Notes under the pieces: generated by a model
What the model was told of the DNA's origin: nothing
Databases searched by the model: none
What the model saw: the letters and a program-made list of their open reading frames with translations, nothing else
Made by a program: the position numbers and the translations under genes
Source: Alkaliphilus sp. NP8
GTDB lineage: Bacteria > Bacillota > Clostridia > Peptostreptococcales > Natronincolaceae
Direction of reading: 5' to 3'
NCBI GenBank assembly: GCA_015978205.1
Contig: JADWMM010000027.1
Coordinates: 62,001 to 126,000 of the forward strand
Length of the DNA: 64,000 nucleotides
Shown: positions 9,989-39,042 of the stretch, piece after piece
Layout: every line of letters begins with the position of its first letter
How positions within the stretch are numbered: position 1 is the stretch's first letter

Positions 9989-10777
9989 ATGGAAAAAGAA
10001 AAAAAGTTTTCAATAGGAGAAATTGCTAAATTAACAGGTGTTACTATTCGTACATTACAATATTACGATAATATTGGATTAGTTCTATTAGAAAAAGAAG
10101 TAAGTAATGGGCGTAGATATTACAGTGAATCTGATTTAACGAGACTACAACAAGTTTTATTTTACAAATCACTTGGATTACAAATTAAAGATATAAAAAA
10201 ACTTATTATAGAAACAGCAAAACCTTACCAAATTGCTTCTGTTTTAAAAAAACAACGAGATATTTTATATCATAAGTTGAACGATATAAAGATGAATATA
10301 TCTTTTATAGATACTAGCTTAATAAGTTTAGAACAAAACAAGTCACTTCCTATGAGAGAGCTAATTAAGCTAATAATTTCTTTAAATAAAGACAATATTT
10401 TTGAGTATAAAAATGTTGAATATGATGAAGATATTAAAGATACTTTTATGAATCACCATGAAAATACTGAAGAATTTATAGAAATTTACTGGAAGTGGAA
10501 AGCTCTTATAGTGGAAGCAGTTTCACTTATTTTAAATGGAGTTGCGCCTGAAAGTGAAAAAGGAAAAGATTTTGGAGCAAAGTGGATAAAAATGATAACG
10601 GAAATAATAGGAGGGAATCTTGAACTATTAGAAGCACATAAAATATCATATAAGAATCGTGACAAGTGGCCAGAAGAAGATCGCAGTTTGATGGATTTTG
10701 CAGATGAGTTCATAGATAAGGCAGTAGAAGGTTACTTATCTATTACTGATTATTGGAAGGATGGAAAAAATGATTAA
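9989..10777 (+). CDS. MerR-family transcriptional regulator (TipA-like)
   Basis: MerR HTH: FSIGEIAKLTGVTIRTLQYYDNIGLVLLEKEVSNGRRYYSESDL. Confidence 0.93.
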   Translation: MEKEKKFSIGEIAKLTGVTIRTLQYYDNIGLVLLEKEVSNGRRYYSESDLTRLQQVLFYKSLGLQIKDIKKLIIETAKPYQIASVLKKQRDILYHKLNDIKMNISFIDTSLISLEQNKSLPMRELIKLIISLNKDNIFEYKNVEYDEDIKDTFMNHHENTEEFIEIYWKWKALIVEAVSLILNGVAPESEKGKDFGAKWIKMITEIIGGNLELLEAHKISYKNRDKWPEEDRSLMDFADEFIDKAVEGYLSITDYWKDGKND

Positions 10778-11670
10778 TATAAAAAATTTAACTAAGGAAC
10801 ATAAAGATATGGTTGCTGTAGACAACTTAACATTAGATATTAAACATGGAGTAGTTACAGGTTTTTTAGGACCTAACGGAGCAGGAAAATCTACTACAAT
10901 GCGTATGATTTTAAACCTTACTAAACCAACAAAAGGTCAAGTTTCTATAGATGGAAAATCCTATACAGAGCTACAGAATCCTATATCTAAAGTTGGAGCT
11001 TTAATTGATGCAGACGCTGTTAATCCTAAGTTGACTGCAAGACAACATCTTCAACTAGTAGCTACTGTCAGTGGAATTTCAATCAATAAAGTAGATAAAA
11101 TGTTAGAAAAAGTAGGATTAGAAAAAGTGAAAGATAAAAAAAAGTGAATTTTCTTTAGGAATGAAACAGCGATTAGGGATCGCTTGTGCACTTTTAGGAG
11201 ATCCAGAAACAGTAATATTAGATGAACCTTTTAATGGTTTGGATGTTGATGGAATTAAATGGTTAAGAGACTTAACCAAAGACTTAGCCAAAGAAGGAAA
11301 AGCAGTTTTAATTTCAAGTCACCTTATGAGTGAAGTTCAAACTATTGCTGAAAGGATAATTGTACTAGCACAAGGAAAACTTATTGCGGATATGACTATA
11401 GAAGAGATGGCTAAAAAGAGTTTAAGCACACATTTAAAAGTAAGAAGCCAACATAATGGAGTGTTAAAAACTTTATTAGAAAAAAGTGGAGCAATTATTC
11501 AAAAATCAGATATGGAAGTTATAAATCTGCAAAATATAGAAATGAAAAAGGTAGGACTTATAGCTAAAGAAAATAATATTGCAATATTTGAATTAAGTAG
11601 GATTCAGCCTTCATTAGAAGATCTTTTTATAGAGATTACAGAAGGTAAAGTTGATTATAAATCTGAATAA
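10761..11670 (+). pseudogene. ABC transporter ATP-binding protein interrupted by a frameshift (ORFs 10761-11147 and 11161-11670)
   Basis: Walker A (GPNGAGKST) in the first ORF; signature and Walker B (VILDEPFNGLD) in the second; removing one A from A8 at 11136-11143 restores KDKKSEFSLGMKQR. Confidence 0.85.
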
Positions 11671-13379: not shown

Positions 13380-14220
13380 TTAATTATTAATATTGTTTCT
13401 TGAACGTTCCAAATGAATACTTATTATGGTTACTATTAATTCTGTTATTACAAAGGCAAACCACACACCGATCATGCCCCAAAAGTGGCTTAAAACAAAA
13501 ACCGTAGGAACGATAATAATTAATCCTCGCGAAATTGAAATTGATAATGCATCTTTAATATTTTCAGTAGCACTTAAAAACATTGTAATTATAATGTTTA
13601 CACCTGCAAAGAAAAAACCAAGAAAGTAAATTCTAAGTCTTGTATCTGCCATCTGTGCAATGCTAGTATTATTTTCACTGTTAAATATTTGTATGATACT
13701 TTCAGAGAATGTCATTACTAAAGAATAAATTGTAAATGCAATTATAAGAGCTGTAGTCAATGCATATTTTCGCACTTTCTTGAGCTTATCGAAGTTGTAT
13801 TGTCCGAAATATTTACTTATTAATGGTTGGGTGCCTTGAGCTAATCCTGTAAAAATCGCGATTACCACCAGTGCTAAATTAGCAACAATTGCATAAGATG
13901 CTATTCCTAAGTTTCCTTCAAGTCGTAAAATAACAATATTAAAAGTTATTAAAACAACAGCTGAGGAAATTTCAATAATAAATGAAGATAAACCCAAACT
14001 GAAAATACTATAAATTTGATTCAATTCGAGATTAATACTATCCCTACCAAAACCCCCGACTTTACTGCGTTGGAAAACACATTATTGGCTATGTCCTCTT
14101 CATTTTGTGAACGTAATATCCTGAATCTAGTAGCTCCTCCAATTCCTATCATTAGACCTATTCCATGAATAACACTGTATATAGAAATTGAAAGTATAAG
14201 TTGATTTATAATAGTGAGCC
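13380..14220 (-). pseudogene. MATE-family efflux protein, internally deleted and frameshifted
   Basis: C-terminal half in ORF 13380-14024; reverse strand of 14024-14220 encodes SVIHGIGLMIGIGGATRFRILRSQNEEDIANNVFSNAVKSGVLVGIVLISN* (MATE N-terminus); middle missing. Confidence 0.85.
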
Positions 14221-14788
14221 TGAATCTATTTTAGATGATTATTTGTACATAAAACTTTAAACTCTACGAGGCTATACACAAATCTAATACAAAACGATAA
14301 ATGAAAACAGTAGAATCATTATCTATACTAGATTAATAAATGTATTATCCAATAAATAAAGTAACCTATTAGACCTCCAACAAATGTAAAGATAGCAATT
14401 TCTACAGCATTGATTACATCATCGACACCTTTGTACGAGTATATCCACCTCATAACATGATACTTTTAAAAAAGATCAGTAAAAGATATTGCTACTAATA
14501 CGTTAGATCAAATTTTATTTTAGAATGGTGAATATTTAAAAATAAAAGATAGAAATAGCAATATTTGACATAATATTTATATAGAGTCATGTATACTTGT
14601 ATCTAGTTTATATATAATGCTACAAAAAGTAAATACAAAACTATAAACAACAGTGCAAATATATATACAAAGTCATAGTATTTGATGAATCTATTTGAAT
14701 TTATAAAATATGATAAATGACAGTTTTTATAAGTTTATGCTCAGTAAAACGATTATTAATGAAAAAATATTAAGATGGAGGTGTAGAA

Positions 14789-15673
14789 ATGAATATAGAA
14801 ATAAAGAATGTATCTCAAAAATACTTTAAAAGTAAAAACAAATCTTTAGATAATGTTAATATGTCCATAACCAAAGGTGTATTTGGTCTCATCGGTGAAA
14901 ATGGAGCAGGAAAAACAACTCTTTTAAAGATGTTAGCAACTGTAATGCCGGTGCAAGATGGTACTATAAGTATTGACGGCGATGATATAACTAAGGATAC
15001 TGAAAAAATAAGAAAATATATTGGGTATCTACCTCAAAAGTTTGATTTTTTTGAGAGTATTACTGTCTATGAAATGCTTGATTACATTGCTTTATTAAAG
15101 AATGTTAAAACAGAAGACCGAGAGCATGAAATAAAATTGCTGATTCACCAATTTAATCTACAAGATAAAATAAATAGTAAGATTAATAGCTTATCTGGAG
15201 GAATGAAGCAGCGATTAGCAATAGCTCAATCTCTATTAGGGGATTCAAAATTAGTTATATTAGATGAACCAACTGTTGGACTTGACCCTAATGAACGTTT
15301 AAGATTTAGAAACATTATTAATGAGAAAAGTATTGAACATACAATTATTATTTCAACACACATTATTTCTGATATTGCTATGTTATGTAATAATATCGCA
15401 ATTATGAAAAAGGGGAAAGTATTTTATTGTGGTTCAATAGATAATCTTCTTGAACTTGTTGAGGGCAAAATCTATGTTGATAAATTGCATATAAATGACA
15501 AGATTGATAGAACAAAATATAAAAAAATCATCTCAATTTTTAGAAAGAAGAATACTGTTGAAGTAAGATTTATTCTGGATACTCCTTTAGTCCATGCCTA
15601 TAAAAAAGTTACACCTACTTTGGAAGACGCTTATTTTTATATTATGTCCTTAGATGAAGGTGATCAATTATGA
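14789..15673 (+). CDS. ABC transporter ATP-binding protein
   Basis: GENGAGKTT, LSGGMKQR, VILDEPTVGLD. Confidence 0.95.
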   Translation: MNIEIKNVSQKYFKSKNKSLDNVNMSITKGVFGLIGENGAGKTTLLKMLATVMPVQDGTISIDGDDITKDTEKIRKYIGYLPQKFDFFESITVYEMLDYIALLKNVKTEDREHEIKLLIHQFNLQDKINSKINSLSGGMKQRLAIAQSLLGDSKLVILDEPTVGLDPNERLRFRNIINEKSIEHTIIISTHIISDIAMLCNNIAIMKKGKVFYCGSIDNLLELVEGKIYVDKLHINDKIDRTKYKKIISIFRKKNTVEVRFILDTPLVHAYKKVTPTLEDAYFYIMSLDEGDQL

Positions 15674-17100
15674 TTGCAATAATTAAGAAAACCATAAAAA
15701 TATGTAATAGTGAGTTCTATAATGGTTTAGTTTATAAATTGTTAATAAATATACTAGTATTTTTATTTATTGTTGGTTTGCAATTTGGAGATATTACATT
15801 AAAAGTAAGTAGCAATTATTTTGTAACATCATGGATATCTATTAATGTGTATTTTATCTTTTGTCTGTTCAAAAAAAACAATAGAGCTTTCTTGTTGGAT
15901 CTTAGTGATTTGCCAAGTAATAGGAAGTTGTTAATGTTATATACGGTTGCAGGAATTATGAATATTGGATGGGGGTTATTTATTTTTTTTCATCTAATAT
16001 TTGTAATGAAGGCGACAATTCTAAATGCCTTAATGGTTACCATAATTCAGTATATTTTTGCTCTATCAATAGGCGCTGTAGGTGGTGTTTTGTATAAAAA
16101 ATATGTCGGTATCATGATAATCATTGGTCTTGCAGTTGTTAATTTTATTTTTTATAACCCGTTAATCTATGATGGTTCTAGCCATTTTTTATCAATAAGT
16201 GAGCAATTACATGCGATTAATGTGCCTAATATTATTAACATCATAAGTCTAATATTACTATTATTATTAAGTCTATTCATAACAGCTATTTTATCAAAAT
16301 CACATAATAGGTTTAAATGTACAAAGCTGATGATATTAATGGTAGTGTGTGTTGTTGCTTATGTATCCATACTTTTTTACGACTTCTCAAAGTATGAAAA
16401 TCTTATAAAAGATGATTACGTTATCACAACTATGGGTGATCATATAATTGAAAGTAAAGGTATCCCAATAGATAAAGTTGAAGACATTTATTCAATTGTA
16501 TCAGAGTTTGAAAAGCATTATCAGAATGTACAAACAGATACTAGATATTTAAAGTACATAATAGATAAAAGATATTTATCTGCAGTTTCTTGGAAATTAA
16601 AAGGTATACACCCAAAATCTGTAGTTTTTAATAAAGATACTATGTATATTCATATACTATCAAGCTCAATGATATATTTTGAAGATGCTGACTTGTTACG
16701 CAATTTTATGGATGAAATAAAATCTGCAATGGTAATTAATGTTAAAGGTTACAATCAGAGTAAATATACTAGACATCTGATAGAGGGTTATAGTATTGAT
16801 ATTATGAAGAAGATAAGTGGTGATTTAGATTTGGAGCAATCTCAGAAGGTAAAAAACTATTATATCAAAGAGATTGAAGACATATTTAGTTATCCCACAA
16901 CTCAGTTTAATTTTGTTTATAGAGTGGGATTGATCATATATGATAAATTCCCTTCATCAATTGGAGCAGTATATGATGTAATTTTGAAGCAGAATCCACA
17001 ATCAGATCAAGAGTTCATTGAGTTACTTGAAACTAATTTTAAACATATTGTTAAAGATGAAGATATGTTAGAAATTTTAAGTCAAGTAGATAAAAAGTAG
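15670..17100 (+). CDS. ABC-associated permease with a large C-terminal soluble domain
   Basis: Multi-TM N-terminus and about 240-aa soluble C-terminus; overlaps the ATPase gene. Confidence 0.75.
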   Translation: MIAIIKKTIKICNSEFYNGLVYKLLINILVFLFIVGLQFGDITLKVSSNYFVTSWISINVYFIFCLFKKNNRAFLLDLSDLPSNRKLLMLYTVAGIMNIGWGLFIFFHLIFVMKATILNALMVTIIQYIFALSIGAVGGVLYKKYVGIMIIIGLAVVNFIFYNPLIYDGSSHFLSISEQLHAINVPNIINIISLILLLLLSLFITAILSKSHNRFKCTKLMILMVVCVVAYVSILFYDFSKYENLIKDDYVITTMGDHIIESKGIPIDKVEDIYSIVSEFEKHYQNVQTDTRYLKYIIDKRYLSAVSWKLKGIHPKSVVFNKDTMYIHILSSSMIYFEDADLLRNFMDEIKSAMVINVKGYNQSKYTRHLIEGYSIDIMKKISGDLDLEQSQKVKNYYIKEIEDIFSYPTTQFNFVYRVGLIIYDKFPSSIGAVYDVILKQNPQSDQEFIELLETNFKHIVKDEDMLEILSQVDKK

Positions 17101-17114
17101 AAAGGGGGAATTTT

Positions 17115-17822
17115 ATGAAAAAACGCACAATATTGCGCGTGAAATGGAGTGCATTAAAAAGAACAAAAGCTTTTTATTTTTTAATCATTTTTAACTATTT
17201 TTTGTTAGCGATGGTTGATACAAAGTCGTTCGTTTTGCTGACAGGCGTTGAAAATTATATATTTAGATATGTTTTTCAACAACTCTGGATAGTTATGACC
17301 AGCGCATTATTCGTCCAAATAGTTTTTAATGAAAAAACGATTGACAGTATAAAAAACTACATGATTATCTATGTGAAAGATATTAAAAGGGAAGTATATG
17401 GATCGGCATTGCTCTGTATAATAGTAAATATTGTTGCTTTGCTTATTGGACATATCATATTACTGATTATTAATTATATCTACTATGGCAAAGTGTTATT
17501 GACTCTTTCAATAGTAAACTTCATTATTGTTTCTTTACAGATTATTGTTAGTGTATTATTTGTGATGAGTTTGCGGATGTACTTTAAAAAGAATCTACTT
17601 GTTTTTGGCTTATTCTATTTAACAATCATGGCTATGATAACGATTAATAACGTTTTTATTACCATGCCACTGACCATAAGGATACTTGGCATTGGTGGAG
17701 AAGGATACTATATTACTTATGGATGGCAACTATGGACTGGAAGAATTATTCTATTTGCAATCATTTATATTGCATTTAAACTGTCTATAAATAAATTGAA
17801 TAAGGAATTGAAAAATGTTTGA
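17115..17822 (+). CDS. ABC-associated integral membrane protein
   Basis: 235 aa, about 6 TMs, same operon. Confidence 0.7.
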   Translation: MKKRTILRVKWSALKRTKAFYFLIIFNYFLLAMVDTKSFVLLTGVENYIFRYVFQQLWIVMTSALFVQIVFNEKTIDSIKNYMIIYVKDIKREVYGSALLCIIVNIVALLIGHIILLIINYIYYGKVLLTLSIVNFIIVSLQIIVSVLFVMSLRMYFKKNLLVFGLFYLTIMAMITINNVFITMPLTIRILGIGGEGYYITYGWQLWTGRIILFAIIYIAFKLSINKLNKELKNV

Positions 17823-19095
17823 GTTAGATATCAATATTGACAATCTATACAAAGGTATAATTAATAATAAAAAAACTACTATCATGTTTCGTTTCATTCC
17901 TCCATGTTCCGGTAGTTATGAAGTTATATGTAATGCTAATGGTTTGTTGTGCGGTGCAATATATGATAAAAATCAAACTAACTATGTAAGTGGTGCTTAT
18001 ACTAAAAATAAGTCTGTTGTTAGGTTAGCTTCTACTTTGTTGAAAGGGCAACTATATTATGTGAAGTTATATACATCACAACATTGTAGAGTCAATATAA
18101 AATATACTTTGCATATTCGTCATATACCAACACCAAAGATATCTCATTTTAAATATCAATGGGGTATGTTAAATAGAAAAAGTGGGCTTGATATTAATAT
18201 ATTGCCAGTTTGGAAGTATATATATAATTCAACCATTCATGTCGGTGTAGCTGATACAGGAGTCAACTATAACCATATCAATTTACAGAAGAATATTAAT
18301 AAAAAGTTGAGTTATAATTTTGTTCACGAAGATCAAGATATTTATCCTGAAAGTGAAAGTGAAAATGAATATGCAGCACGTAACGGACATGGTACATATG
18401 TTGCAGGCATTATATCAGGCTACTCAAAAGATGATATAGGTATTTTAGGGGTTGTGAATACACCTAATACGATAGCTTTAAAGGTGTTGGGAAATAAGAA
18501 AAAGAACTGTACAGTGATTAATAAGACAAGCGACGCATTTGTATTAGCTATAGAATATGCTATTAAAAATAATATTAAGATCATTAATTGTAGTTTTAGT
18601 GGAAGAGAATTTTCTGAAAAAGAAAAAGGGGCTATTGAAAGTGCAAAAAATATACTATTTGTTATGGCAGCAGGAAATAAAGGGGTTGATATAAGCAAGG
18701 AACCTTATTATCCTGCTTGCTATAATGCTCAAAACAGTATCGTTGTTGCTGCAACAGATCAATATGGTCGATTATATGAGAAGTCTAATTACGGTGCATT
18801 CGTAGATATTGGTGCACCTGGTGAAGATATTGCCAGTATATATATGGAGGATCAATATATAAAAAGTCAAGGAACTTCCGCAGCAGCTCCTTTCGTATCG
18901 GGTATATGTGCACTTGTACTTGAGAAAAATCCGAAATTACTACCATATGAAGTAAAACAGATAGTAACGCATCCAGATAATGTAACTCAAATAAATGGAC
19001 TTAAAGGAAAGGTAAAATGTTCAGGAATCATAAACGCATATAAATCTATTATCACAGATGCCACAGGACTAATTGGAGTATCTCCAACTTTTTAA
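17815..19095 (+). CDS. S8-family (subtilisin-like) serine protease without signal peptide
   Basis: Catalytic motifs VGVADTGVNYNHI (Asp), NGHGTYVAGI (His), GTSAAAPFVSG (Ser); N-terminal PPC-like beta region; start overlaps the upstream gene. Confidence 0.9.
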   Translation: MFELDINIDNLYKGIINNKKTTIMFRFIPPCSGSYEVICNANGLLCGAIYDKNQTNYVSGAYTKNKSVVRLASTLLKGQLYYVKLYTSQHCRVNIKYTLHIRHIPTPKISHFKYQWGMLNRKSGLDINILPVWKYIYNSTIHVGVADTGVNYNHINLQKNINKKLSYNFVHEDQDIYPESESENEYAARNGHGTYVAGIISGYSKDDIGILGVVNTPNTIALKVLGNKKKNCTVINKTSDAFVLAIEYAIKNNIKIINCSFSGREFSEKEKGAIESAKNILFVMAAGNKGVDISKEPYYPACYNAQNSIVVAATDQYGRLYEKSNYGAFVDIGAPGEDIASIYMEDQYIKSQGTSAAAPFVSGICALVLEKNPKLLPYEVKQIVTHPDNVTQINGLKGKVKCSGIINAYKSIITDATGLIGVSPTF

Positions 19096-19241
19096 CATTA
19101 CCATACGCTAAGACATGTTTGAAAGTTGTTTTATAAAATTTACTACTCGGTATATCGCCAACATATCTTACTTATCTTAATATAAAATGCTAATATATAA
19201 GGACAGTTAATATATACAAAATAAAAAAGCTATTTAATTAT

Positions 19242-19648
19242 ATGTCTGAAAGCTTAATTAAAAAAAGGAAAAAACAGTCGCTGTTAGTTTAATGTTAACA
19301 TCTATATTTGTATTCGTAAGTTGTAGTAATCAAGCACTAGAAAGTGTAAATGGAGCTGCAAGTGGAGAAATACCTACTATTGGTATGACTACTGATGCAA
19401 ATGAAGAAAACAAATTAAATAAAAAAGATACACTTAAAGAAGAGTCTCTAGATAATGATTCATTTGAAGGATATAGAATTATTGAAGCTGATGGCAAAGA
19501 TCAATCAGGGCATAAAGAGTCTAACGTTATAGTAGATATTGACTTTATAGTAGATATCTACTTTGGTGATAAAGCATATTATGCTTATAAAAATGATTAT
19601 GGACAATTAGTTAAGGTAACTGCTAAGGAAATTATATTACAAGAATAA
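19242..19648 (+). pseudogene. Probable lipoprotein gene with damaged start/signal peptide (intact ORF 19292-19648)
   Basis: Adding one A to the A6 run at 19269-19274 gives MSESLIKKRKKTVAVSLMLTSIFVFVSCSN, a lipoprotein signal peptide. Confidence 0.45.
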
Positions 19649-19909
19649 GTATGGTAATTAGGCCTATATGGAAAAAGTAATTACAACTATACATATATGA
19701 ATAAAGGAAATACTGTAACTGATAAGTTTGATAATGTTAATCCAGATGAAGTAAATGCAAAATTAGAAATAAATAAACTTGCTGAAAAACAAACAGTTTT
19801 AGAAAATAAAGATATAGTGATTACTGAATTAGATAAAAAAGATGAAGATATTGTAATTTAAAATGCAATTAATTGTGAACACAAATAGGCAATGGGAAAA
19901 ACAATTTAA

Positions 19910-20349
19910 TATTGTTATTCCCAGATCCAAGGATAGCCAGAGGAGTCGGTACTATACATAAAAGGAAATTAATATCTTTTCTAAGATTAAAAAGCTGCGA
20001 CATGAAAATGTAGGTATTCATCACATAAAAAGATATCTAAATAGGGATATTGAGGCTTTAGAATAAATCGAAAAGGCCCTACAAGTAACTCCAATTTTGA
20101 AGTGTCAGCTGAGGATTTTCGAGACATGATTGCAAATGTTATTGCTGAACGGGAAAAAAATTAAAACGAGAATTTAGAAATTAATTAAGATAAGAATTAG
20201 AAAATCATGAATGCAGGATTACAGATAAAGTATTTGAAAAATAATTGGAACAGATTCAGATAGAAAATAGTAAACTGATGAACTATATAGCTACTACTAG
20301 AGAAGAAGATAAAAATAAAGGATTTTTTAATAGGTTATTTAAAAAATAG
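19910..20349 (+). pseudogene. Degraded MerR-like DNA-binding protein with coiled-coil C-terminus
   Basis: Several in-frame stops; fragments IPRSKDSQRSRYYT*KEINIFSKIKKLRHENVGIHHIKRYLNRD and NFEVSAEDFRDMIANVIAEREKN*, ending LEQIQIENSKLMNYIATTREEDKNKGFFNRLFKK*. Confidence 0.75.
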
Positions 20350-20567
20350 TAAAGACAAACTTATTAAACTGTTAAGCTAAATAATATTATCAGAATTAAT
20401 ACTTTTACCTTAAGATGAAACACATTAAATTTATAACTGTAAGTTACGGTTCCTTTATTAAGAGTGGGCATTATAATATAGCTATATTTCAAGTAATATA
20501 TTACGAGGAAGAAAGAATCAGAAAATAAACACAAAAACTGATTAAATGATACCTAATTTAAACAGGA

Positions 20568-31295: not shown

Positions 31296-32369
31296 ATGGA
31301 AAAAATAATTAAAAAATTTTTATCTGAATATAAGAAAAAGAATAAAAAAAGGTTTGAAATACAAACTTTAGTAAAATATATAATAAATAACTACAAAGGA
31401 GAAGCGTTTTATTTAGCAGGTGGTGGATATATAGAGCTTTATAAACAAATAAATCTACTTAAAGAAAAAAGATATATTAAAGAAATAAAATCATCTAGCT
31501 ATAATGGTTATAATCCACCATTAAAAACTAAATGGCAGATTATATATGAGGAAAGTAGTTCAAAGTGGGATAAATCTAAAATACTTCAGCTATCAGACTA
31601 CTTAGATTTTAGTTATTATATTAAACATCCATCATATCAAACGGATTTAGAATGGGAATATATAAAAAACATTTATGGTTTTTTAAAATCTAAAGAAAAA
31701 AGAGAATGGGCTAGTATAGAGGAACGTTCTTTAGAGCTTTTCTACGATGAAAAATTTCTTAAAAACAAAAAAGAAAAATATAAAGGAAAATATGGCATAT
31801 TAAAGAGGTTAAATCTTTCTAATGAAGACTTAAAAATGAAAAAATATGGACAAATGTTTATTTACTGGAATAAAGGTGTGGAGCATATTAAAAATATCAT
31901 TATTCTCGAAAATCACTCTACTTTTTTTACTTATAAAAGAGTTGCCCAAGCATATGGACAAATATTTGGATTTAATCCAGATGCTCTTATTTACGGAGAA
32001 GGCAAAAAAATTGAAGATAGCTTATCTTTTATAGAAGAAATTACAGATCCAGCTAAAGTAAAAATTTTGTATTTTGGAGATATAGATCCGGAAGGTTTAG
32101 GAATATATTATAGACTTAAAGAAAAATACAAAGATATGAATATTCAATTACAGCACGAAGCTTATTTGCATTTAATTAAATTATGTAAAAAAGAATATTA
32201 TTCAGAAAGACAAAATAAAAATCCATTGTATTTAGATGTTTTTATAGAAGAAATGAAAGTATATTTAGAAAATAGTCAATTAAAAAAGATTAAATCTATT
32301 TGGAATAATGATTTAAGAGTGCCTCAGGAATTAATAAATTATGAATATTTATTGAAGGTGAGAAAATGA
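31296..32369 (+). CDS. jetD: Wadjet JetD (DUF2220 / TOPRIM-like nuclease subunit)
   Basis: C-terminal ILENHSTFF and YFGDIDPEGLGIYYRLK acidic motif; position with jetABC. Confidence 0.9.
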   Translation: MEKIIKKFLSEYKKKNKKRFEIQTLVKYIINNYKGEAFYLAGGGYIELYKQINLLKEKRYIKEIKSSSYNGYNPPLKTKWQIIYEESSSKWDKSKILQLSDYLDFSYYIKHPSYQTDLEWEYIKNIYGFLKSKEKREWASIEERSLELFYDEKFLKNKKEKYKGKYGILKRLNLSNEDLKMKKYGQMFIYWNKGVEHIKNIIILENHSTFFTYKRVAQAYGQIFGFNPDALIYGEGKKIEDSLSFIEEITDPAKVKILYFGDIDPEGLGIYYRLKEKYKDMNIQLQHEAYLHLIKLCKKEYYSERQNKNPLYLDVFIEEMKVYLENSQLKKIKSIWNNDLRVPQELINYEYLLKVRK

Positions 32370-33838
32370 TGATAGAAAATGGTTTTTTTAATAGAATGAA
32401 AAAACTTCAAGCAATTCGACTGTTAGGTGCAGGAATGGATATAGGAGAATTAAATGAATATGCTTATGAAATTTGTTTTCTACTAATACAAAATATATTC
32501 TTAAGAGAACTTAGAGAAAATCATAATAGAAGCAGGGAAGATATGCTATTTATTACTGAAAAAATACTTCAGGATATGGATTTAAAATATAGTAAAGATA
32601 TAGTTGTGAGAATTGTAGATGGTACTTTATGGTATAGAGAACCTACAAAACAAGAAGGATTTAAAACAAAAATTTACAATGAAGCTACTAAAAATAAAGA
32701 AGAGTATATATTTAGATATTTTAAAGTGGATAGAGAGCATAGCCACTGGGAACAGGGTGGTGCTACTGTATATATGTTAACCGAAGAAAGCCAAGAAATG
32801 ATTTTTATAACCCGGGAAATATTGGAAGAGTTTGGATTTGACCTAGAACAATTTTATACTTTGCAATTAATTAAAACAGGAAATTTTGCAAAGGCAAGAA
32901 GCAGTATAGATAATTTAATGGCCAGAGTTAGGGTGTTGATTAATAGAGAAAAGGAATATAAAAGAGATATTATAAGAGATCCTCAAAATATATTTTTTGA
33001 TAGAAGTATTAGAGGTAAAAAATCTGAAGATGAAATAAAGGAACAATTTGAAGAAGAACAAAAAGTTTTTGCAAATATGTTTTCTTGGCGAAATAGATAT
33101 GATGCCTTACCAGAAGATAAGAAGCAAGAGGCTGAAACTATGTTTGAAAATCTTGAAAGAGCTAGATTATTACATGACAGTTTAGCTAAACATGTTATGG
33201 AGAGTTTGGCATTAGAAATGGAAATAAGGGTAAAATATCCAGAAAGTTTTTGGAATATTTCTAGTTTTAGCTTTAAAAAGGATATTTGGCAAAATCATAT
33301 TGTTAAAAATGGTTTAAGAAGTATGAATGACTTAGAAAAAGTTGTGTCCACTTTGTTTTCTCCTAAAACAGAGTTTATTTATCCACTTGAATGGGCCTGG
33401 TCAGAACAAATTATTAAGCAAAAAAGAAATATAAAAAAAGAAAAGGATGCTGTTTTAGAAGAGGAATGGAAGTTTAGAGAAACAGATTGGGATTTATTAA
33501 TAGATCTTTATGAAAAAATATTCAACTCACTTTTAGAAAAAGGAGAATTTTGTATATTAGAATTAAATAAAATGAGTAAAGAAGAAAGGAAAAAATGGTT
33601 ATATCAAAAGGAAAATATAGATTTGTTTATGATGTTTGTTATTTCAGAGGTTATATTAGATTTAAATCATACTGGTGAGGATGAAAGACTTAAATTATTT
33701 AAAGGTTTATGCGATAAAAATCCTATTTTTAAAAAACTACATGGAAAAAAGATTTTATCTAAAATAGAAAGTACAGAAAAAGTTTTTGCTTGGAAAGAAT
33801 TATTTATTTCACCATATACCATTTATATAAAGGAGTGA
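32366..33838 (+). CDS. jetA: Wadjet JetA (kleisin-like, DUF5716 type)
   Basis: 490-aa ORF of JetA-family character, ATGA-coupled to jetD and upstream of JetB/JetC. Confidence 0.88.
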   Translation: MMIENGFFNRMKKLQAIRLLGAGMDIGELNEYAYEICFLLIQNIFLRELRENHNRSREDMLFITEKILQDMDLKYSKDIVVRIVDGTLWYREPTKQEGFKTKIYNEATKNKEEYIFRYFKVDREHSHWEQGGATVYMLTEESQEMIFITREILEEFGFDLEQFYTLQLIKTGNFAKARSSIDNLMARVRVLINREKEYKRDIIRDPQNIFFDRSIRGKKSEDEIKEQFEEEQKVFANMFSWRNRYDALPEDKKQEAETMFENLERARLLHDSLAKHVMESLALEMEIRVKYPESFWNISSFSFKKDIWQNHIVKNGLRSMNDLEKVVSTLFSPKTEFIYPLEWAWSEQIIKQKRNIKKEKDAVLEEEWKFRETDWDLLIDLYEKIFNSLLEKGEFCILELNKMSKEERKKWLYQKENIDLFMMFVISEVILDLNHTGEDERLKLFKGLCDKNPIFKKLHGKKILSKIESTEKVFAWKELFISPYTIYIKE

Positions 33839-33842
33839 AAAC

Positions 33843-34601
33843 ATGAGCTATACCAGTGAAGATATAAAAAAAGCTAGTGAATTGTTTTTTCATTTATTAA
33901 ATAAAAAGATAATACCTTCTAATGATATTTTAGCTGCACAATATTATGATAATAATAACATAAGTGAAATTGTAAAAAACATGGCAGAAGAAGGTGGATT
34001 GCGTGTACTTAGTACTAGACAAAATCTGCACTTAGTATCAAAAGGCGAAGGATCTATCTTTGCTACCACATATAGTCAAATGAAAGAAAAATATAATAAA
34101 CTTTATAGAAAAAAACATTTTTATTTGGCTAATATTATAATATGTATTTATTTAGCTGAAATAGATAAAGAAAACAATTTTTCCTTTAGAATTGAAGATG
34201 CAGGGATATCCTATTATAAATTAGAGGAAATAATAACAAACACCTTGGACTCTTGGAAAAAGAGAAATGAAAAAGAAGATAGTTTCTCTAAAGAATTTGC
34301 TATTGCAATAGATGAAATTCATCATCTTTGGTCTGTGGAAATGTCTCATTCTAAGGATGCAAAAGATGGAGTAGGTTTTAGTTTATCTTCTCAAACTAGA
34401 TTAGGTTTTATTCATGAAGCGCTTAAGCCTTTAGAACAAGAAAACTTAATTATTAGTTTAAATCAAGAAAATAGAATTATTCCTAAAGAAGAACTTTACG
34501 AAAGACTTGAAAATCTTTATCACGGTGGAGATAGATATGAAGAGATTATAGAACTTATTAAATATAATGAAAAGGAGAAGGAAGATGCCGAAACTATCTA
34601 A
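33843..34601 (+). CDS. jetB: Wadjet JetB (KITE-like, DUF6063/DUF4194 type)
   Basis: 252-aa ORF between JetA and the SMC-like subunit. Confidence 0.85.
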   Translation: MSYTSEDIKKASELFFHLLNKKIIPSNDILAAQYYDNNNISEIVKNMAEEGGLRVLSTRQNLHLVSKGEGSIFATTYSQMKEKYNKLYRKKHFYLANIIICIYLAEIDKENNFSFRIEDAGISYYKLEEIITNTLDSWKKRNEKEDSFSKEFAIAIDEIHHLWSVEMSHSKDAKDGVGFSLSSQTRLGFIHEALKPLEQENLIISLNQENRIIPKEELYERLENLYHGGDRYEEIIELIKYNEKEKEDAETI

Positions 34602-37600
34602 GATTAGATTAACAGGGTGCAAATATGATGGCCTAAGAAAAGAGCATGAAAATTCTATTTTTGATTTAACAAAGGAAGATAAAGCTGATCATACACTTTT
34701 TACATTATTTAATGGTGGAGGAAAAGGTGTAATGATGCAGCTTATTTTTCAGCTTTTATTACCTGGTACAAAGTGGGGAAAAAGTAATGGAAATAAAGTT
34801 ATAGGTATGTTTTATGATCAAAGAAATAATTTGCAATCTTTCACATTCCATGTTGTTTTAGAATGGGTATTAGATACGGTGCCGGAAAAGAGATTGATTA
34901 ATGGAATTGCTGTAAAATCAATGTTAAAAAATACTGGAGCAGAAGAAGAGGGAAAAGCAGGTCTGTCCTATTTCTTATATACACATGAACATGAAAATAA
35001 TGGTTATTATACAGTAGAAAATCTACCATTATACGATAAGGAAGCAAAAGAGACAATAGATATAGATATATTGGAAGATTTTATAGATGACAATAAAAGA
35101 GATTTTATAAAATATAGTCAATCTAATGTTAGAAAAAAAGATGGCTCATATTATAGTTATTTAGAAAGCAGAGGAATATACAGAAGTGAATGGACTAATT
35201 TAAAAAGTATTAATAAATCTGAAGGTGGAGCAGGAGATTACTTTATTGGTGCCAATGATAATAAGTCTATTTTCGATAAGATTATTTTACCAGCCATAAG
35301 TGAAAATATTAGAAGTTATACTTGTGAAAATGAGAATAGTCTTATAGAAATGTTTAAAAGTAACCTTTCTATTACAAAGGATTTACCAATATTAATGAAA
35401 CGTGAAAATGATTATAAAGATTTATTAGTAGAGATGAAACCTTTAATTGAAAACGCTGATAGTGGATCAAGATTTATAGATAGAAAAGATAGATTAATAA
35501 GTGAAGGTAATGATATATACTTTATTTTAAAAGAAGAAGAAAGTCTAGTTGTTCAAACAATAGAAAAATGGAGTAATGAACTAAGAAAGGCAGAGGAAGA
35601 AAAAAAAGACCTAGCTTTTCAGAAAGATAATCTAAAGTATAATGAACAAAAGAGAAAGTTGAAAACGAAAGAAAATAAAGTAGAAGAATTTAAAAATATA
35701 TTTAATGAAAAATCAAGTAAAATAAATAAAAAGAAAGCAGAACTGCAATTATATGAAATAAATAAACTATTATATACTAAAAAAGAAGTAGAAGTAAAAA
35801 TTAATAATACATTAATAGAGAAAGAAAGATTAATAGAAGCATTAGATATTAATGATATAAAAGAAAAAGCTAAAGTATTAGATTATAAAATAAAACAGGA
35901 ATGGAATAAAACAAAAAAACATTGGAGACATAATGAAAATCAACACAAAGGATATATGAAATATACTAATAGACTTACAGAAGAATATAAAGGTAAAAAT
36001 AAAAAATATGAAGCTAAAACAAAAGAATTAGATAAGGAAGTCAATGTATTTAAAGTTAAAGAAGAAAATTTAGAGAAATACAGAAAAAATTTAGAACTTA
36101 AGTATGATCCTTTAAGCTTAGCATTTCCTGAAAGAATTTATGAAGATTCAATAAAAGAAGAAAAGGAAATAGAGGGAAAAATTAATGTTTTAATTCAACA
36201 AATAAACAAATATAAAGAAAAAATAAATACATTAAATCTAGAAATAAGTAAGTTACAGTATGAGCTAGATAATAAAATAAAAGAAATAAACTTATTAGAG
36301 GAAAAGATAAAAACACAAGAGGAATATGAGTTGAATACAGTAAGAAATATTTCAAAGCAATTATTAGAGAATTATGATGGAAGTTTATTAACTCATAATT
36401 GGTTTAAACAGAAATTAGAAGAATTAGAAGTGTTAAAATCAGATAAAAAACAAAAGTTAGAAGAAATACAACGAAAAATATGGGAGAAGAATATAGATAA
36501 GGCTATAAATAAGGAAGATTATTTTATTCCTAATAAAGATATTCTTTTTATTAAAGCAGAAATTGAAAAATTAGGTATTCATGTAGAAACTGGAAATGAA
36601 TATTTGAAAAAATTAGATGATGAAACAAAGTTTTCTATAGTAAAAAATTATCCAGGTTTTATTTATTCAGTTGTAATAGGAAATGAAAAAGAATGGCAAC
36701 TTATAGACAAAAATATAGATAATAGCTTGTTTTATCATAATATGGTTCCTGTATACATTCGTTCAAAAATGAAAGAAACTAACAATAATCAGCTAAAAAC
36801 AGTATATGGTAAAGCCTATGAATTAATATATGAAAATAAATATTTTTTATGGAAAAAAGAGATGACAAAAAAAATTAATGATTTAATTGAAACAGAAAAT
36901 AAGATTAAAGCAGATTTAAAAGATATTGAAGATATGAAGCAGGATTTAAATATAATTATAAAAACTGATACAGCGTGGACTTTAAATGAAAAACTTAAAA
37001 ATATGGAAAAAGAAGAGTTACTGCTTTTAGAAAATATTAATATTGCAAAAGAAGAGAAAGTAAGCTTAGAAAATAAGTTAATTAAGTCTGAACATAATTC
37101 AGAAGAAGAAGAAAAGAAACTTAAGGAAATAAAAAATTCTACTAAAGACTTAAAAGTATATATAGAAAAAATAAAAGAAATTAATGAAGAAAAAATATAT
37201 ATAGAAAAAATTAAGAAAGATTTAAAAGAACTTGAAGAAAAGATATTAAACATTGAGGAAAAAACAGAAGAAATAGAAAAAAGTCAGAATATGAGTAAAG
37301 ACAATTATAATAAATGGAAACTAGAGACAAAGAATACTATAGCAGATATTAAAGAAATATTTAATGAAGTAAATTATCCATATGGAGCTGATGAAGATTA
37401 TTTAAATGAAAAAATACCAGAGCTATCTATTAACACTGGCGAGTTAATGCTTTTAGTAAAAGAGAGAAAAGTATTAGACAAGGATATGATTTCTAAAAAT
37501 AATAATATTGCTTCATTAGATAAGGATATAAAATACCTTAGAAAAGATTTAGAAAGACACATTAAGGATTTAAATGAAATAGATGAAAATTGGGGGAAGT

Positions 37601-39042
37601 ATCCTTATTTACAAATAGCATTAAGTGAAATAGAAATAAATATAACAAAGTTTACTAAAGTTATTGAAGATCTTACAGCTGAAAAAGAAAATGTAAAATC
37701 TCAAAGTGATACTATTATTGGAAGTATTTCAACTATGAAGGAATCTTTAGAAGAAAAAGAAAAACAAATAGTAAAAGATCATAAAAAACCACCTATAATA
37801 TTAGAAATTGAAAATATAAATAGTAAATTAAATGACGTGGAAAGAAATCTTCAATCTAATAAAAAATATTTATATTTATGTAAAGAAGAATTAGAAAAAA
37901 ATCAAAGCTATAGAGGCAATTTAGATATTAACTTAACAAAAATTGAAACAGGATATCCTTTAAACCCTACAAAAGGAAAAATGGATAAGATTTTAAAGGA
38001 AAAAATTCAAGACACTTCAGATATAGTAGTAGAAAAATGGTTAAGAGATTGTAGAAAAATTGAAGATCAAATAGAAAAGACTATAAAAGAAGGTGAAAGG
38101 TTTAGAAGTAATTTTATTAAGGAAATCAACTTAAAACTAGAGGAAGACAAGTTGAAAAATAAAATTATAACAACAGTAAAAGAAGCTAACTTAGCTAATT
38201 TTAAAAGTAATCTTAGTTCTTTTAAAAGTATGGAAAATCATTTTCAGCATGAGCTAATACGGTTATCTAAAGATAAACGCAAAGCAGAAGATGCAATGAA
38301 AAAATGGACTAATAGAGCATCTATTCATATTATTAGAATGGTAGAAGCTTTAAAGAGCATGGTATCTAGTATGAATTATACTAATGAACAAGGATATGCT
38401 TTCCCTTTAGTTAAATTAAAAGGTACAGAAAGACTACCTAAAGAAGAAAATGAAATAACTTATTTGCTAGAAGAATATTTTGTACAAGCCATAGCTAAAA
38501 TTCTAGAAGAAAATGAAGAAATCTCTAATTTAGAAGATAAAGTTTTTAAAGATTTAATGGGAGATGTAGTTCTTTTTTCTAAAGCTTTACAAGGTCGATA
38601 TCCTACATTAATGGTTTATAAAATGTCTGAAAAAAATGAATTTAGATATGCACGGGCTAGAGATGAATACTACACTACATGGGAAGCAATAAATAAAGGA
38701 GAAGGGGATTTGCCTGAAGGATCTGGAGGACAAACTCTTTCAGTAAATACTTTTGTAATTATGATGATTATGAGCTTTAAAAAGAAGCATATTGGAAATG
38801 AAAACCCTTCTACAGTATTAATATTGGATAATCCCTTTGGAAAGGCTTCGGCGAAACATGTATTAGACCCTATATTTGAAATAGCAAATAAGTTAAACTT
38901 TCAATTAATTTGTTTTGCAGCTCCCGAAATTATTAAAGTAGAAATAAGCGAAAGATTTCCAGTATTTTGGGAATTAAAGCTTAAAGATGGAAAAGTTATA
39001 CATGGTGGAAGAATCATAAAGAAAGAATTATCTCCAGACTAA
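34585..39042 (+). CDS. jetC: Wadjet JetC (SMC/MukB-like ATPase)
   Basis: FNGGGKG P-loop variant, long coiled coil, SGGQ signature, LILDNPFGKAS Walker B-like motif; ATG 34585 preceded by AAGGAGAAGGAAG. Confidence 0.92.
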   Translation: MPKLSKIRLTGCKYDGLRKEHENSIFDLTKEDKADHTLFTLFNGGGKGVMMQLIFQLLLPGTKWGKSNGNKVIGMFYDQRNNLQSFTFHVVLEWVLDTVPEKRLINGIAVKSMLKNTGAEEEGKAGLSYFLYTHEHENNGYYTVENLPLYDKEAKETIDIDILEDFIDDNKRDFIKYSQSNVRKKDGSYYSYLESRGIYRSEWTNLKSINKSEGGAGDYFIGANDNKSIFDKIILPAISENIRSYTCENENSLIEMFKSNLSITKDLPILMKRENDYKDLLVEMKPLIENADSGSRFIDRKDRLISEGNDIYFILKEEESLVVQTIEKWSNELRKAEEEKKDLAFQKDNLKYNEQKRKLKTKENKVEEFKNIFNEKSSKINKKKAELQLYEINKLLYTKKEVEVKINNTLIEKERLIEALDINDIKEKAKVLDYKIKQEWNKTKKHWRHNENQHKGYMKYTNRLTEEYKGKNKKYEAKTKELDKEVNVFKVKEENLEKYRKNLELKYDPLSLAFPERIYEDSIKEEKEIEGKINVLIQQINKYKEKINTLNLEISKLQYELDNKIKEINLLEEKIKTQEEYELNTVRNISKQLLENYDGSLLTHNWFKQKLEELEVLKSDKKQKLEEIQRKIWEKNIDKAINKEDYFIPNKDILFIKAEIEKLGIHVETGNEYLKKLDDETKFSIVKNYPGFIYSVVIGNEKEWQLIDKNIDNSLFYHNMVPVYIRSKMKETNNNQLKTVYGKAYELIYENKYFLWKKEMTKKINDLIETENKIKADLKDIEDMKQDLNIIIKTDTAWTLNEKLKNMEKEELLLLENINIAKEEKVSLENKLIKSEHNSEEEEKKLKEIKNSTKDLKVYIEKIKEINEEKIYIEKIKKDLKELEEKILNIEEKTEEIEKSQNMSKDNYNKWKLETKNTIADIKEIFNEVNYPYGADEDYLNEKIPELSINTGELMLLVKERKVLDKDMISKNNNIASLDKDIKYLRKDLERHIKDLNEIDENWGKYPYLQIALSEIEINITKFTKVIEDLTAEKENVKSQSDTIIGSISTMKESLEEKEKQIVKDHKKPPIILEIENINSKLNDVERNLQSNKKYLYLCKEELEKNQSYRGNLDINLTKIETGYPLNPTKGKMDKILKEKIQDTSDIVVEKWLRDCRKIEDQIEKTIKEGERFRSNFIKEINLKLEEDKLKNKIITTVKEANLANFKSNLSSFKSMENHFQHELIRLSKDKRKAEDAMKKWTNRASIHIIRMVEALKSMVSSMNYTNEQGYAFPLVKLKGTERLPKEENEITYLLEEYFVQAIAKILEENEEISNLEDKVFKDLMGDVVLFSKALQGRYPTLMVYKMSEKNEFRYARARDEYYTTWEAINKGEGDLPEGSGGQTLSVNTFVIMMIMSFKKKHIGNENPSTVLILDNPFGKASAKHVLDPIFEIANKLNFQLICFAAPEIIKVEISERFPVFWELKLKDGKVIHGGRIIKKELSPD

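Follow-up and report, generated by a model that had tools for sequence, protein, structure and literature searches.

A two-permease ABC transporter shared with Tepidibacter thalassicus and a signal-less subtilase coupled to it in Alkaliphilus sp. NP8

Do four tightly packed genes of Alkaliphilus sp. NP8, coding for an ABC ATPase, two permeases and a subtilase, make up one self-contained system for peptide maturation and export or for immunity, as an earlier note on this DNA had supposed, or is the protease an addition to a transporter that can work alone? We addressed this question in the window, i.e. the whole stretch of 64,000 nucleotides that was analysed, which belongs to a draft genome of 2.67 Mb.

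The four-gene block and its transporter

Four intact ORFs lie on the plus strand and are packed within positions 14789-19095, just as previously described. A leader with a ribosome-binding site (14728-14788, +) precedes the gene for an ABC ATPase of 294 aa (14789-15673, +), which is followed by the genes for permease 1 (476 aa; 15670-17100, +), permease 2 (235 aa; 17115-17822, +) and an S8 subtilase (426 aa; 17815-19095, +). The first and the last junction are overlaps of 4 and 8 nt, respectively, and a 14-nt gap separates the two permease genes. A terminator-like hairpin with a T-run (19073-19087, +; from a pattern scan only) lies within the 3' end of the subtilase gene, which would fit with one transcript for all four genes. 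When compared with their counterparts in Tepidibacter thalassicus (see below), the genes for the ATPase, permease 1 and permease 2 gave dN/dS values of 0.16, 0.35 and 0.18, respectively. The transporter is thus maintained by purifying selection, and a chance set of ORFs is ruled out.

The description of the surroundings as gene debris is a fair one, given a MATE fragment, a split ABC ATPase and mostly short ORFs at 19096-20560. The MATE efflux protein fragment (PF01554) comprises 214 aa (13380-14024, -), and its gene looks truncated, while the ABC ATPase, which is flanked by genes for a MerR-like regulator and a membrane protein, is divided into ORFs of 128 and 169 aa (10761-11670, +) owing to a frameshift or a sequencing error. 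Downstream, a lipoprotein-like ORF of 118 aa that has no significant family match (19292-19648, +) is followed by debris up to ∼20.5 kb. Elsewhere in the window, there is a complete Wadjet type III defence operon (31296-39042, +) in the order JetD-JetA-JetB-JetC, with strong PADLOC matches for all four proteins. Besides, another contig of the same genome (C28; L002, 57-3153) encodes an IetA-like AAA ATPase and an IetS-like subtilase, a candidate defence pair.

The ATPase matches PF00005 (Pfam, E=6.4e-35) and carries both a Walker A motif (GENGAGKTT) and a signature motif (LSGGMKQRL). It was scored against the DrrA, GldA, gallidermin-type and PmtA models, with every score falling under the respective family cut-off. 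The substrate type of an ABC transporter is not readable from sequence. Its best relatives on plasmids share ∼37-41% identity; some of them (∼38%) come from gene clusters in which a sactipeptide bacteriocin or precursor is annotated, a weak pointer to peptides as the possible cargo, and others belong to three-gene sets whose first permease bears a large soluble domain.

Neither permease has a significant match in Pfam, NCBIfam or PHROGs, and neither can be assigned through these collections to a known ABC-2 membrane family, with which their topology alone agrees. Permease 2 has six helices by hydropathy. For permease 1, hydropathy and loop charges give ∼7 helices with the N-terminus inside, the helix boundaries being present also in a low-confidence structural model. 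Its inner-side loops are positively charged, no K or R occurs in the long loop that leads to the sixth helix, and the stretch KSHNRFKC precedes the last helix. The soluble C-terminal part of ∼240 aa that the earlier note had singled out does exist: it starts after residue 236 and, going by charge rules, is predicted to face outward. No Pfam model matches it, even at E=10. To the eye, this part looks like a degenerate MA-type metallopeptidase domain; an hhalign comparison of this part, of which just two homologues were available, with one MA protein scored no better than shuffles. Structure predictions for permease 1 and the subtilase (mean pLDDT of 38 and 32, respectively) were too low for use.

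A subtilase related to secreted enzymes

The fourth protein matches Peptidase_S8 (E=3.6e-46) over a catalytic domain at residues ∼132-412, with the motifs DTG (147), HGT (192), AAGN (285) and GTS (353). The triad reported earlier is indeed complete: Asp147, His192 and Ser355 as well as the oxyanion Asn288 are all in place, and proteolytic activity is predicted accordingly from these residues. The open frame is just one codon longer than the ORF, and an in-frame TGA two codons before the ATG leaves no room for an upstream signal peptide. The subtilase is therefore probably cytoplasmic, and the proposal that it acts in this compartment gains in plausibility. Its nine cysteines, a possible mark of cytoplasmic proteins, are at the top of, and still within, the range of its relatives.

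PPC denotes a domain rich in beta structure that accompanies secreted proteases. While the Pfam PPC model (PF04151) gives no match to the subtilase N-terminus, phmmer aligned this region (residues ∼4-104) to the final PPC repeat in secreted relatives (5.8e-13). A profile for which only the other PPC repeats of these relatives were used also finds it, with E=1.3e-4, compared to 0.27 for the best of 200 shuffles. The PPC-like nature of the N-terminus, noted before, is hence upheld indirectly, through the repeats of the relatives.

The best relatives are two enzymes of 943 and 921 aa from genomes of the same family (G045 and G069), with ∼41% identity over the N-terminal and catalytic domains. They have a signal-peptide-like hydrophobic start, PPC repeats and a C-terminus that weakly matches Fervidolysin-NPro, and the window subtilase keeps the catalytic domain and, among the PPC repeats, only the last. 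A tree built from 31 catalytic domains places it as the sister of the two enzymes (support 100/98), on a branch of 1.24 compared to ∼0.6 for the sister enzymes. Judged from its sequence, the subtilase descends from a secreted clade. Remnants of its missing ends were not found adjoining the gene. Among subtilase relatives in the order, family and class, most were long ORFs; five shorter ones were inspected, and four of these had no ABC genes beside them. The fifth, a 433-aa subtilase with a signal-peptide-like start (L041, 1-2715, -), has an ABC ATPase ORF ∼700 bp downstream on the same strand, with the gene for a 99-aa membrane protein in between; these neighbours are possibly unrelated. In another locus (L015, 7229-12974), a secreted PPC subtilase occurs in tandem, the second copy lacking its 5' part (591-aa ORF), with transposase-like ORFs nearby.

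A second transporter copy in Tepidibacter thalassicus

We surveyed 395 genomes of the order, 391 of the class, 84,980 species, viral contigs, plasmids, phages and a second Tepidibacter genome for permease 1; the species and viral scans relied on two short peptide patterns, which distant relatives may escape. The only other copy found was that of T. thalassicus, and the protein was absent from the 19 other genomes of the window's family. A weak match of 29% inside a histidine kinase was dropped.

DNA similarity starts at 14728, i.e. 61 bp before the ATPase gene, and extends to the subtilase ATG, forming a block (14728-17817) of 88.6% identity between the two genomes. All three transporter genes are intact in T. 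thalassicus, and their products are 81-87% identical to those of the window (87% for the ATPase and permease 2, 81% for permease 1), compared to 50% for PepF and its best match in that species. Given this difference and the absence from the 19 family genomes, the three-gene transporter is probably a horizontally moved unit, an estimate with a thin basis in that PepF served as the single control gene.

Neither a subtilase nor a subtilase remnant was found near the T. thalassicus transporter. All S8 matches in this genome fall into one gene on another contig, whose repeated domain order suggests a resemblance to the germination protease CspBA. Co-conservation of subtilase and transporter, whose lack the earlier note had named as a refuting result, is contradicted by the only other transporter copy. 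The view of a self-contained four-gene system is likewise weakened: the shared block ends at the subtilase ATG and T. thalassicus keeps three genes only.

Whether the subtilase was gained in one lineage or lost from the other had to be judged from two transporter copies only. Its ATG and likely ribosome-binding site (AAGGA) sit inside the end of permease 2. The Tepidibacter equivalent (GAGGA...ATG) reads through five codons (MDRYM) into a stop at one of the two permease 2 ends present there. This shared start signal agrees with either the capture of a subtilase fragment here or the loss of a fourth gene there. Around the transporter, the Tepidibacter DNA is rearranged: parts of it are duplicated, and transposase-like ORFs lie near. 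Two copies, ∼99% identical, exist of the end of permease 2 and of an ORF downstream of it (L007, 7571-8102 and 15124-16181), the nearer copy being devoid of internal stretches that the other contains.

If all four genes were an ancestral unit from which Tepidibacter lost the subtilase, one might expect what is seen at the permease 2 end, namely an overlapping ribosome-binding site and ATG in both genomes and a five-codon stub in a rearranged Tepidibacter locus. Yet the start-like sequence is possibly a by-product of permease 2 codons, and the subtilase has its nearest kin among enzymes from the family to which the window genome itself belongs, so that we consider an ancestral unit decidedly improbable. 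The same kinship modestly favours capture.

A captured gene may also be a mere passenger, in that recombination left a 5'- and 3'-truncated subtilase behind a ready-made start at the permease 2 end, with no tie to the pump and perhaps in decay. DNA homology that ends exactly at the subtilase ATG, and hence a start codon lying in transporter DNA, would be consistent with this scenario, as would the domains missing at both ends, the long branch and the gene fragments that abound around the locus. However, the frame of 426 codons is intact, the catalytic residues are kept at ∼41% identity to relatives, and the truncation points lie close to domain borders; we therefore regard a passenger as a possible, albeit rather unlikely, outcome.

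Possible function and relation to known systems

Cytoplasmic subtilases that act ahead of ABC export have precedents, namely PepP among the LanP enzymes, known from the lantibiotic Pep5 (PMC5812297), and QhpE, which together with QhpF serves peptide maturation (PMC7876137). By analogy, the window subtilase might act in the cytoplasm by removing a leader, with the product then exported by the ABC pump, and the tight coupling of the four genes as well as the ATPase relatives that adjoin sactipeptide genes would be in line with this. On the other hand, none of the precursor ORFs sought is common to the window and Tepidibacter loci, and the nearby ORFs include no lanthipeptide precursor as a LanP partner, in keeping with the earlier remark that no precursor gene is obvious. 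No lanthipeptide synthesis genes were found among the flanking ORFs examined, and LANC_like had no match anywhere in the window genome. The QhpE model scored the subtilase with 30.9 bits, far under its cut-off of 165, and the combination of a QhpE match above the cut-off with QhpC/QhpD nearby was not found. The SPASM maturase on the contig is that of SCIFF: the SCIFF peptide (TIGR03973) and its radical-SAM maturase (TIGR03974) are encoded on the same contig (C36; L055, 157-1833) at ∼7.2-8.9 kb, ∼68 kb from the locus. Moreover, Tepidibacter keeps the transporter without the protease, and nothing in the literature was found to match as a described ABC plus S8 system. Maturation and export of a peptide thus appear unlikely. 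From the earlier proposal of peptide maturation, export or immunity, the translational coupling to an ABC exporter and the probably cytoplasmic subtilase stand, while its maturation part is left with no positive support.

What we favour instead, at roughly even chances of being correct, is a mobile ABC-2-type exporter, probably serving efflux or self-protection, that was joined by a captured, truncated and cytoplasmic subtilase as a lineage-specific accessory. In this mechanism, the ATPase would drive a heterodimeric channel of permeases 1 and 2, and the outward domain of permease 1 would probably bind the substrate or gate its release. Anatomy and ATPase kinship suggest removal or export of a peptide or another amphiphile as the most likely role of the pump. 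The subtilase, stemming from a secreted multi-PPC enzyme, would have been coupled to the 3' end of the transporter in the window genome and, through the loss of its signal peptide, its first PPC repeats and the prodomain-like C-terminal region, should act in the cytoplasm, where its most likely task would be the cleavage of peptides that the pump handles. The simplest account is that of a self-sufficient pump, with the subtilase as an accessory of one lineage, because Tepidibacter has retained the transporter with no protease beside it. The protease seems tied to the pump by gene coupling alone, as known from one genome.

A more ambitious version would see here a novel sort of compact peptide-processing exporter. 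It would be composed of a two-permease ABC pump of no known class, fitted with an outward sensor domain, and a subtilase that became cytoplasmic when its signal peptide and prodomain were lost and that now processes cargo before export; we deem it quite doubtful. If the coupling is functional, the locus could exemplify how a secreted protease, on losing domains, was taken into service in the cytoplasm and linked to an exporter, with the customary peptide-modifying genes absent. Were the coupling without function, the three genes would still make up a rare mobile ABC pump with permeases of no described family, whose outward domain poses a structural question.

Compared to known systems, the transporter is most readily set beside ABC-2 efflux and immunity transporters of the LanFEG, SkfEF and DrrAB type, with which it shares one ATPase of ∼290 aa and polytopic permeases; it differs from them by the additional, predicted outward domain of ∼240 aa in permease 1, the attached subtilase and bacteriocin genes that are not adjacent. 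LanP of the PepP type and QhpE resemble the subtilase in that they are subtilisin-like, have no signal peptide and do their work ahead of an ABC exporter (PMC5812297, PMC7876137), yet the window locus is without a substrate gene or modifying enzyme, and the closest kin of its subtilase are secreted PPC enzymes. Among the closest plasmid ATPases are those of three-gene sets from Priestia and Geobacillus (pBM-Cp-1-4 and pGeo12b; 39-41% identity). While their permeases have no detectable sequence homology to those of the window, the gene order is another one and a subtilase is missing, they are alike in combining an ATPase, a permease of 694-695 aa whose last helix is followed by a large soluble domain, and a second membrane protein of 213-216 aa. 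By eye, the soluble domain of the 694-695-aa permeases (L018, 2897-6499; L019, 2887-6486) is M1-type peptidase-like, with no significant family match. Lastly, the secreted PPC-repeat subtilases of G045 and G069 are unlike the window enzyme in their length (921-943 aa), signal-peptide-like start, PPC repeats, prodomain-like C-terminus and lack of a neighbouring ABC transporter, but they are its sister group and share ∼41% identity with it across the PPC and catalytic domains.
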